Below, piece by piece: positions 5,972 to 7,517 of a stretch of 64,000 nucleotides of DNA (its first letter is position 1; each line of letters opens with the position of its first letter). This DNA is from Sunxiuqinia elliptica. Its GTDB lineage: Bacteria > Bacteroidota > Bacteroidia > Bacteroidales > Prolixibacteraceae. The position numbers and the translations under genes were made by a program. Under the pieces are notes generated by a model. The model worked only from the letters and a program-made list of their open reading frames with translations, searched no databases and had not been told where the DNA came from. The stretch covers positions 620,001 to 684,000 of the forward strand of contig NZ_FONW01000001.1 of the NCBI RefSeq assembly GCF_900113005.1, given 5' to 3'.

Positions 5972-6391
5972 ATGAATACGAAGAGAATTTGGGCCAATTT
6001 AGCCGTGAAAGATGTCCGAAGAACCTGGGAATTCTACCTGAAACTGGGCTTCACTCCCAATTGTCCGACGACGACCACAGAACTAGCGAGTTTCGTGGTT
6101 GGAGATGATGACTTTGTTATTCACTTTTTCGAGCAAGAACGACTAAAAACAAGTCTTGAAGGCGAAATCTCGGATTTAAGCCAGGCCAATGAAATCATGT
6201 TTACACTTTCGGCAGAAAGCAAAGAGGAGGTTGATCAATGGGTGACGGAGGTCAGCAAAGCTGGTGGAACGATTCATTTCGACTCAAAAAAAGATCGAAA
6301 GAAATTTTATGACGACAATGCTTACTACGTTTGCGTCTTTTCCGATCCTGATGGGCATAAGTTTAATGTCTTCTACAATGGAAGTAAGTAA
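5972..6391 (+). CDS. VOC / glyoxalase-fold protein
   Basis: A 139-residue protein of the vicinal oxygen chelate superfamily (glyoxalase / bleomycin-resistance / dioxygenase fold), cytoplasmic. The start segment IWANLAVKDVRRTWEFYLKLGF is the classic first strand-helix of the fold, and FSDPDGHKFNVFYN at the end is the classic last strand with the D-P-[DE]-G-x turn. Members of this group are often annotated as lactoylglutathione lyase-like, but the true substrate is unknown. It appears to be a single-gene unit. Its stop lies 67 bases from the end of the minus-strand riboswitch transcript. Confidence 0.85.
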   Translation: MNTKRIWANLAVKDVRRTWEFYLKLGFTPNCPTTTTELASFVVGDDDFVIHFFEQERLKTSLEGEISDLSQANEIMFTLSAESKEEVDQWVTEVSKAGGTIHFDSKKDRKKFYDDNAYYVCVFSDPDGHKFNVFYNGSK

Positions 6392-6457
6392 GGGGTAGCT
6401 CATTCATGCTGTTGTGATAGCTGTTCCCGAAAAGGTGCCTTTGAGCGAGCGTTTCAG

Positions 6458-6493
6458 TAAAAAAAAAGCTGTGGCCCCTGACCAACAGCTTTT
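6458..6493 (-). terminator. Intrinsic terminator ending the orphan riboswitch transcript
   Basis: Read on the minus strand, AAAGCTG and CAGCTTT pair, extended by TGG/CCA after a one-base bulge, and about nine T residues follow. It ends the transcript that starts near 6779 before it could run antisense into the VOC gene. Confidence 0.8.
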
Positions 6494-6593
6494 ATAACAG
6501 TTACATTGCCCCATAATTGGCAGAAAACAGAGCAAATGAAGTCAGGGCTATTCAATTTTCAGAACGCGCTTTTACCCCGAAAACTTCAAATTA

Positions 6594-6784
6594 ATGGCAG
6601 GTCTTCTGGCTTACCCAATTTCAAATGCCTTCCCATCCGGAAAATTCGGAATTAACCGAAAACGGACAGTGGCTTTCATATTCGAATTTTTTTTTGTGGG
6701 TTTACAGCTGCGGGGACAGCTCCTGTATTTCACAGGATTCCCTTTTCATCTCAATGAGGTTATGAGAACCATTAACCAAGGCTG
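6594..6784 (-). promoter_or_regulatory. Cobalamin (adenosylcobalamin) riboswitch, no gene downstream
   Basis: Read on the minus strand the aptamer shows every conserved block of the class I cobalamin riboswitch in order: AAAAGGGAATCCTGTGAAA, then AGGAGCTGTCCCCGCAGCTG (the B12-box core), AAGCCACTG, GGATGGGAAGGC, and the 3' block GCCAGAAGACCTGCC at 6596-6610. Such elements normally precede btuB-like transporters or cobamide-dependent or cobamide-replacing enzymes and shut them off when B12 is plentiful. Here the next 130 bases downstream hold no convincing open reading frame and end in a strong terminator. The next gene to the left is on the opposite strand. The ORF seen on the plus strand across this region is a shadow. 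Confidence 0.93.
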
Positions 6785-6815
6785 CAAAGTAACCACATTT
6801 TTTATCCTTTTGAAA
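6785..6815 (-). promoter_or_regulatory. Promoter of the orphan cobalamin riboswitch
   Basis: Minus-strand TTTC (6812-6815), 19 bases, then TTACTTTG (6785-6792). This is close to the Bacteroidota consensus TTG/TTTG-N19-21-TAnnTTTG. Transcription would start around 6779, just at the 5' edge of the aptamer, so the RNA is probably still made. Confidence 0.6.
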
Positions 6816-7000
6816 CCTTTTTGCGGCCTAATTTTAAACTTTTTAAGTATGAACTTATTTAATCATTTATATGTAAATACAGGTGATTAAGTGGGTTTTC
6901 AGGGAGAGGATGGGGGGAGATTCACCTTCAAATTTCAAGGTTATTTTAGGGGCTTGAAAATTTTAAAGAGCTGAACGATTCAACTTTCAAGATGTAATCC

Positions 7001-7008
7001 TAACTTTG
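7001..7008 (+). promoter_or_regulatory. -7 promoter element of the DUF4296 gene
   Basis: TAACTTTG matches TAnnTTTG exactly and lies 84 bases upstream of the start codon. No clear -33 element was found at the right distance. Confidence 0.4.
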
Positions 7009-7091
7009 TCAACCAGGTGCTGTTTTGCAAAATGAAGTTTTTTGAGCTGTTCGAGCTCATGAATAACGAACTTTGAAAGCAAATAGCACCA

Positions 7092-7517
7092 ATGATGAAA
7101 TTATCAATGATCATTGTAAAGCGTATGCAGACAAGAAAAACAACCAGTTATATCTTAGTGCTTCTTTTCATTCTTTTGGGCTTTTCATGCAAGGAAAAGA
7201 AAGGTTTCCCGAAGCCCAAGAACCTGATTAACGAGAAACAAATGGTTAACATGCTCTACGATATTCATTTGGGTGAAGCCTATGCCAACCAGTATCGTTT
7301 TCAGGATGAGATGGATAAAATCAAGTCGAAAGACATGTATTATTCCGTTCTGGATAAATATGAAGTTGCTGATTCAATTTTTGCTCAGTCCATTGTGTAC
7401 TATTCCAGTATGCCTAAAGTTTATGAGCGAATTTACCAGCAGGTTGTAGATCGCCTTAACATGCTTCAGGAAGAAAACAATCAAAAAGAAGAGGTGAAAA
7501 TTAAACCTGAAGAATGA
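7092..7517 (+). CDS. DUF4296 lipoprotein
   Basis: A 141-residue predicted lipoprotein of the DUF4296 family, which is restricted to Bacteroidota and has no known function. The hydrophobic signal ends in a lipobox (LLGFSC, Cys at about residue 33). A start at the internal ATG at 7125 would give a more usual 22-residue signal peptide. The mature part begins LINEKQMVNMLYDIHLGEA, the hallmark of the family, and ends in a charged tail. Its stop codon overlaps the start of the next gene by 4 bases, so the two are translationally coupled. Confidence 0.8.
   Translation: MMKLSMIIVKRMQTRKTTSYILVLLFILLGFSCKEKKGFPKPKNLINEKQMVNMLYDIHLGEAYANQYRFQDEMDKIKSKDMYYSVLDKYEVADSIFAQSIVYYSSMPKVYERIYQQVVDRLNMLQEENNQKEEVKIKPEE

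Follow-up and report, generated by a model that had tools for sequence, protein, structure and literature searches.

The window, by which we mean the whole 64-kb stretch of DNA analysed here, carries on its minus strand a cobalamin riboswitch aptamer followed by a conserved non-coding tail and a terminator, and sequence comparisons make it probable that this unit specifies a trans-acting, B12-gated small RNA that would block translation of mutA when B12 is scarce. Methylmalonyl-CoA mutase is a B12-dependent enzyme and mutA encodes its small subunit. The unit itself, its structure, its conservation and its complementarity to mutA are well supported by the genomes compared. Riboswitches usually control the message that contains them; if the proposal is correct, a metabolite sensor and a trans-regulator would be combined in one molecule whose target uses the sensed cofactor, and cells would have a way to fit methylmalonyl-CoA mutase to the B12 supply.

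In the Rfam cmscan search the aptamer is matched by the cobalamin riboswitch family RF00174 at 6788–6579 (minus strand), with 112.9 bits against a gathering threshold of 31.5 (E 1.6e-27) and spanning model positions 1–189, and this is the sole match at gathering threshold across the 64 kb. The initial annotation had described a complete cobalamin aptamer on this strand, and the covariance search bears this out over the full model length, although Rfam places the limits at 6579–6788 in place of the 6594–6784 first given; L5, with the sequence CCCCG, is at 6711–6715. This aptamer is the strongest of the six cobalamin aptamers that Rfam finds in the genome, and the remaining five all precede genes by eye, including those for class I ribonucleotide reductase, TonB receptors and transport functions. 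The class I ribonucleotide reductase lies behind the cobalamin riboswitch at G000:C12:311864-312068 (L002; by eye), and the same genome also encodes the B12-dependent NrdJ (G000:C10:948747-950603).

In front of the aptamer we predict from the sequence, as had been proposed earlier, a promoter at 6785–6815 (minus strand), with TACTTTG (6785–6791), a -7 element of the Bacteroidota type, and an upstream TTTC (6812–6815). The pattern TA-N(2-4)-TTG is present 67–79 nt before L5 in all 17 units examined, a raw count with a loose pattern that has additional matches in several units; a simple scan, which covers sigma-70 promoters only, found no minus-strand promoter at the locus. The terminator reported behind the aptamer was located, by sequence and by a terminator scan, at 6459–6493 (minus strand) as AAAAGCTGTTGGTCAGGGGCCACAGCTTTTTTTTT, with nine T and with GTCAGGG in its loop (6476–6482). 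The simple scan lists three terminator-like sites over 6300–7100 against 0.6 expected, one of which is the upper stem of this terminator and the other two of which are on the plus strand. Promoter and terminator positions, with the start taken from the initial annotation, would give a complete transcript of about 320 nt at 6459–6779 (minus strand). The left neighbour, a gene of the glyoxalase family (Pfam Glyoxalase PF00903) at 5972–6391, is convergent on the plus strand and lies 67 nt beyond the terminator, as had been noted, and the right neighbour at 7092–7517 is a DUF4296 gene (Pfam) that is divergent to the RNA unit.

With the tail by itself as query, 140 Prolixibacteraceae genomes yielded 16 strong carriers (E below 1e-12), and two divergent carriers, G023 and G018, came to light with a covariance model; the unit, consisting of aptamer, tail of about 120 nt and terminator, is thereby found in 18 of the 140 genomes and in six genera. 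The carriers include Mangrovibacterium marinum, M. lignilyticum and Gaoshiqia sediminis, all Prolixibacteraceae, and the other records are metagenome bins labelled Prolixibacteraceae, Sunxiuqinia or Bacteroidota. In a DNA search of 60 relatives the whole unit is matched in two other genera, with mainly aptamer-region parts matched elsewhere. The divergent DUF4296 gene, confirmed by Pfam in each case, adjoins the unit in 17 of the 18 carriers, and the eighteenth (G072) has its contig end within the unit. By blastn, the DUF4296 locus of six same-genus siblings gave no match to the RNA. Among 30 hydrolase loci from non-carriers or divergent carriers, 20 non-carrier loci gave no Rfam match, and only G023 and G018 showed an aptamer when all 30 were scanned for the motif. 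The gene directly before DUF4296 is radA in sibling G001 and, in sibling G006, the cobalamin biosynthesis gene cbiB (NCBIfam); because the window has its glyoxalase-family gene where these siblings have radA or cbiB, the RNA sits at a rearranged spot.

Wider searches, all of which diverged members may escape, returned few further candidates. Model R1 with strict filters detected only the window's genome among 393 genomes of the order, where a loose pattern matched 11 but with the aptamer motif within 500 nt upstream in the window's genome only, and an exact pattern run against a collection of 84,980 species gave 13 contigs, each equal in length to the contig of a carrier. Model R2 yielded five weak matches in 40 genomes without the unit, of which three are other riboswitch leaders, one is a terminator behind a gene, and one (L146; G017:C1:4144782-4144928, minus strand) is an orphan cobalamin aptamer that has both a terminator and, like hairpin H1 described below, a hairpin with GCUGCCAU in its loop. 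L146, from a different genus of the family, is possibly a distant cousin of the unit (R2 E 0.046). G061 and G075 have, within a gene, 28 nt that match the tail, which we attribute to chance (E 0.002 in a search of 140 genomes).

Behind P1 the tail is built in the order P13, CCCUG, H1, GUAACUG and terminator, with all features on the minus strand. The P13 hairpin (6568–6584) exposes L13, CGGGG (6575–6579), which is complementary by sequence to L5 and would thus form a kissing loop with it; the five P13 pairs form in all 16 strong-carrier sequences, one of them with changes on both sides, and in both divergent members. An RNAalifold consensus of the 16 predicts an alternative, anti-P13 helix at 6538–6587 (6582–6587 with 6538–6543, and 6574–6578 with 6545–6549) in which the CCCUG-bearing strand is the partner of both L13 and the 5′ strand of P13, and whose formation excludes both P13 and the L5–L13 contact; its outer strand is paired in 17 of 18 predicted segment minima (the exception being L056), as well as in the predicted fold of the full window RNA. 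The CCCTGAC element (6541–6547) has, judging by conserved pairs, either L13 or the terminator loop GTCAGGG as its partner. The seven pairs with the terminator loop are standard in 16/16 sequences, and six of the seven form in each divergent member. The loop CAGGGG is able to pair with the upstream CCCUG. The five core pairs between CCCUG and CAGGG are invariant, a point against the proposed reading, and the single varying pair beside this core is G.U in 15/16, A-U in the window, C-G in G018 and broken in G023. The terminator stem is retained across the 16 sequences, with a double change at one pair.

Hairpin H1 (6506–6535) has a covarying stem that is nearly wholly different between genera yet re-formed around a constant CUGCC loop, with GGUUUCA/UGAAACC, UUGCUCUGU/AUGGGGCAA, AUAUUUUGGGA/UCCCAGAAUAU and UCAAGUCG/CGACUUGA among the stem pairs of different carriers, and unrelated stems again re-form it in the two divergent members. 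Its loop is 11–18 nt long, and the length of the stem by itself is unremarkable in several sequences, where up to 327 of 500 shuffles are equally good. GUAACUG is a single strand in all 18 tails, and conservation marks out a single-stranded linker, AUGUAACUGUU, at 6496–6506. For the tail structure as a whole, 97.3% of cells are paired, compared with 91.7% in shuffles and 35.0–62.1% in slid controls, and there are 28 double-change cells against 10.5 in shuffles; counted by pair, double changes are not above the level of the shuffles (6 pairs vs 5.2). Rfam searches of the tail up to E 10 gave sub-threshold matches only (ncS01 and STnc240).

The initial annotation had weighed a B12-controlled non-coding RNA against a recently deleted gene and, as a minor alternative, a 35-codon peptide, and the comparison of relatives favours the first of these, the unit and its tail being kept together at a single syntenic position in 18 of the 140 genomes. 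That the unit is the remnant of an ordinary riboswitch whose regulated gene disappeared would fit with the other five aptamers of the genome, which precede genes by eye, but the tail and terminator are kept at one place in six genera and no gene lies consistently behind them: the next gene beyond the terminator is convergent in 13 carriers, co-directional in three, absent within 1.1 kb in one and replaced by a contig end in one, and it varies by genus (glyoxalase family, GcpE, RadA and others). We regard this as the least probable of all the readings considered. A cis-acting riboswitch of a downstream gene was rejected in the same way, the co-directional genes being confined to three of the 18 carriers and to one genus. 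Only marginally less improbable is a role as leader for a short peptide or as antisense RNA against the adjacent gene. Frames of 43 and 33 codons are present at 6404–6555 in the window, and subsets of the relatives share certain frames that extend across P13 and the conserved end of the aptamer; the two window frames are absent from the relatives examined, and the shared ones begin inside the aptamer at differing codons, differ by genus and break up in the tail. The tail is thus kept as structure and sequence and, where a conserved frame was looked for between aptamer and terminator, none is common to the relatives across genera, so that the claim of an empty interval stands and the peptide is disfavoured. 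For an antisense role, radA is the convergent neighbour in both divergent members and, by eye, in several other carriers; against it, the neighbour differs between genera and the terminator, judged by sequence, comes 67 nt short of the neighbouring gene, and this candidate was also rejected.

A search for pairing between the 3′ part of the RNA and mRNAs, which had been suggested as a check, revealed consistent complementarity to the start of mutA. This gene was identified in 26 of 28 genomes (16 carriers and 10 non-carriers) and was not found in G147 and G065, which are 85 and 88% complete. In every one of the 16 carriers with mutA the H1 loop and the linker are complementary, and collinear, to the mutA leader and start codon, and the RNA thereby has, in 16/16, a feature of trans-acting base-pairing small RNAs, a conserved unpaired piece complementary to a translation start. 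In the window's genome mutA is on the same contig, about 410 kb from the RNA unit, and the match comprises 11 nt from the linker, with 11/11 pairs, and 9 nt from H1. Its leader is CTTAACAGTTACATTATGGCAGAAAAA, in which AACAGTTACAT is the exact complement of the linker; the linker is likewise the exact complement of AACAGUUACAU in this leader, and UUUUCUGCC in H1 (6519–6527) is the exact complement of GGCAGAAAA, which runs from the G of the start codon onwards. In the mRNA AACAGUUACAU stands just upstream of GGCAGAAAA and the two together span the start codon. The predicted pairing sites are short and exact. By NCBIfam the G061 protein is the methylmalonyl-CoA mutase small subunit (634.5 bits), and the G000 mutA protein is slightly below the cut-off (615.5 vs 617.25); 20 of the 26 mutA loci gave no Rfam match.

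Non-carriers often retain the mutA site as well, which counts against the reading. At p<0.05 the linker piece matches mutA in 16/16 carriers and 6/10 non-carriers and the H1 piece in 15/16 and 7/10, with non-carrier genes tested against the window's RNA and with the start codon misplaced for G076 and G018 in this screen; it is placed correctly in the count of exact cores. In that count CAGTTAC before the mutA start is intact in 16/16 carriers vs 4/10 non-carriers (Fisher 0.0009, kinship ignored), and both cores, CAGTTAC and GGCAGAA, in 16/16 vs 3/10 (Fisher 0.0002, kinship ignored). If G.U pairs are allowed and at least 10 of 11 pairs are asked for, the mutA site fits in 7/10 non-carriers. In non-carriers G066, G074 and G014 the site is lost, with the nearby GATTTT still there. 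Part of the conservation of the H1 site is explained by coding, because the site overlaps codons for MAEK. The terminator-loop piece matches mutA at p<0.05 in 5/16 carriers and 1/10 others, which we leave as speculation.

When 745 ORF starts were ranked with the pieces of the window's RNA as query, mutA copies took ranks 1–19, six of these 19 coming from non-carriers, and the top other gene reached -20.0 vs -29.7 for mutA of the window's genome; the ORFs were taken mechanically, and deduplicated, from the examined loci and the window. Duplexes of the excised pieces with mutA have energies of -21.0 to -28.9 kcal/mol, with the lowest duplex in G028 being at another site in place of the linker site. 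With the unfolding of tail and leader included, and pseudoknots left aside, the interaction is -9.3 to -19.2 kcal/mol in the 16 carriers, compared with means of -1.8 to -6.5 kcal/mol for shuffled mutA leaders (60 mononucleotide shuffles per carrier). Of the 60 shuffles, none is as low as the real leader in 12 carriers, one in three carriers, and two in one.

Four genes, metE, nrdJ, metH and mutA, were considered as targets under the idea of B12 sparing. The B12-independent enzyme gene metE was found in four of 30 genomes, three of 18 carriers and one of 12 others, and is not the common target because so few carriers have it. The nrdJ gene is present in 30/30 genomes, and its matches in carriers at p<0.05 are inconsistent (linker 1/18, H1 6/18, terminator loop 2/18 and CCCUG 0/18). 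The H1 piece matches the nrdJ start region (e.g. L152) at this threshold in two of 12 others as well as in the six carriers, and nrdJ is possibly a second target, as far as such matches suggest. For metH, found in 28/28 genomes and tested in 27 (the G147 copy, being without a start, was left out, and for G076, where no ATG was found, the first residue of the model was taken as the start), the carriers gave 0/17 for linker, H1 and CCCUG and 2/17 for the terminator loop at p<0.05.

From these features we infer transcription of the unit, its pairing with mutA in the cell, repression and the direction of that repression, and a switch operated by B12. The RNA would be a free-standing small RNA of about 320 nt, with the cobalamin aptamer as its 5′ half and a base-pairing module as its 3′ half, and the H1 loop and linker would cover the mutA start codon and block the initiation of translation. 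The balance of the evidence leans towards a design in which one RNA senses B12 by its own aptamer and moves CCCUG, an internal strand similar to the target leader, between L13 and the terminator loop, exposing or hiding the module that silences mutA in trans. Without B12, L13 would hold the CCCUG strand in the anti-P13 helix, leaving the terminator loop and linker open, the RNA active and mutA off. With B12, the L5–L13 kissing loop would free CCCUGAC to pair with the terminator loop, and the resulting pseudoknot would close around H1 and the linker, with the RNA inactive and mutA on. The outcome would be a sparing of B12. The coupling to B12 is a matter of interpretation, because in neither state are the linker and the H1 loop clearly sequestered.

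That same openness in both states is in keeping with a different logic for the same small RNA and target, in which B12 stabilises the active form or sets the amount of RNA instead of the exposure of the module, and corrinoid riboswitches of both signs are described in PMC10653944. Repressing a B12-dependent enzyme under plentiful B12 makes little physiological sense, though, and mutase increases with B12 in Xylanibacter ruminicola, according to PMC11575231, and we therefore think this logic unlikely. Still more doubtful, in our estimation, is that a conserved riboswitch RNA acts on a protein or on other mRNAs, with the mutA match secondary or accidental. Together, CCCUG/CAGGGG and H1 make up a conserved, compact domain to which a protein could bind, the targets examined were the four genes named above, nrdJ gives a weak signal with the H1 piece (6/18 carriers), and the mutA site is often kept in non-carriers. 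Set against these points, two separate conserved pieces fit adjacent mutA sites in the right order in 16/16 carriers, mutA tops the 745 ORF starts, and the pairing remains favourable after the cost of unfolding.

The proposed B12-gated repressor of mutA shares features with several regulatory RNAs. RyhB is an iron-sparing small RNA that is controlled by Fur and represses iron-needing enzymes; the proposed RNA would likewise save a cofactor in short supply by repressing an enzyme that depends on it, but with the sensor in the same molecule where RyhB has Fur. SreA, which pairs with a distant mRNA, arises by termination in the leader of a genuine operon. This Listeria RNA, a SAM riboswitch acting on prfA, is mentioned in PMC8079631. 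The present RNA is similar in being a riboswitch RNA with a distant mRNA as its predicted pairing partner, and unlike it in having no operon behind it. EutX is a B12 riboswitch RNA that binds EutV and acts via ANTAR hairpins with six-base loops. Rli55 is also a B12 riboswitch RNA that binds EutV (PMC8079631), and both resemble our unit as riboswitch-containing small RNAs; whereas their ANTAR hairpins act on a protein, here the conserved pieces are complementary to an mRNA and H1 has a loop of 11–18 nt. Twin ANTAR hairpins with six-base loops were seen neither by eye nor among Rfam matches up to E 10 at 6440–6620, from a library that may lack an ANTAR model.

AspocR of Listeria has, according to PMC8079631, a B12 riboswitch within an RNA that is antisense to an adjacent gene and that ends early with B12. 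In both cases a non-coding RNA contains a B12 riboswitch, and our unit would likewise tune a pathway that depends on B12; the two differ in that the predicted target here is about 410 kb away, the terminator closes the tail, and there is no overlap with the neighbour. The analogy to Listeria and Enterococcus riboswitch RNAs drawn in the initial annotation is thus right in kind, a riboswitch in a non-coding RNA, but the action probably differs, the tail being complementary to the distant mutA. In corrinoid riboswitches the ligand promotes an L5–L13 kissing loop that stabilises P13, as set out in PMC10653944. The aptamer, the L5–L13 complementarity and a P13 alternative to another helix are common to the RF00174 riboswitches, judged from the same source, and our unit; the output here is a conserved non-coding tail with its own terminator, in place of a downstream gene.

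Riboswitches inside non-coding RNAs are already known, AspocR and Rli55 being examples in PMC8079631. In literature searches limited to open-access papers we noticed no report of the present RNA, nor of a B12 riboswitch RNA pairing with the distant mRNA of a B12-dependent enzyme. For X. ruminicola, of another family, PMC11575231 reports that B12 modestly raises mutase RNA and protein and that no riboswitch is near the pathway genes; its authors call the mechanism unknown and the effect minor, and think the control mainly post-translational. If true, the proposed regulation would be a candidate answer to how B12 raises the mutase in Bacteroidota that have no riboswitch near mutA.

Two resemblances to parts of the tail were seen at other loci. 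The riboswitch-gene leaders L006 and L024, from the window's genus, have TTTCCTGCCAATT just after P13, close in sequence to the H1 loop, and this likeness reflects either a shared origin or chance. Some mutA leaders, e.g. L221 and L224, start with CCCCCTGATTTTC, a sequence similar to CCCTG(G/A)CTTC in the RNA, and with this element the RNA may imitate part of the mRNA that it is proposed to target.
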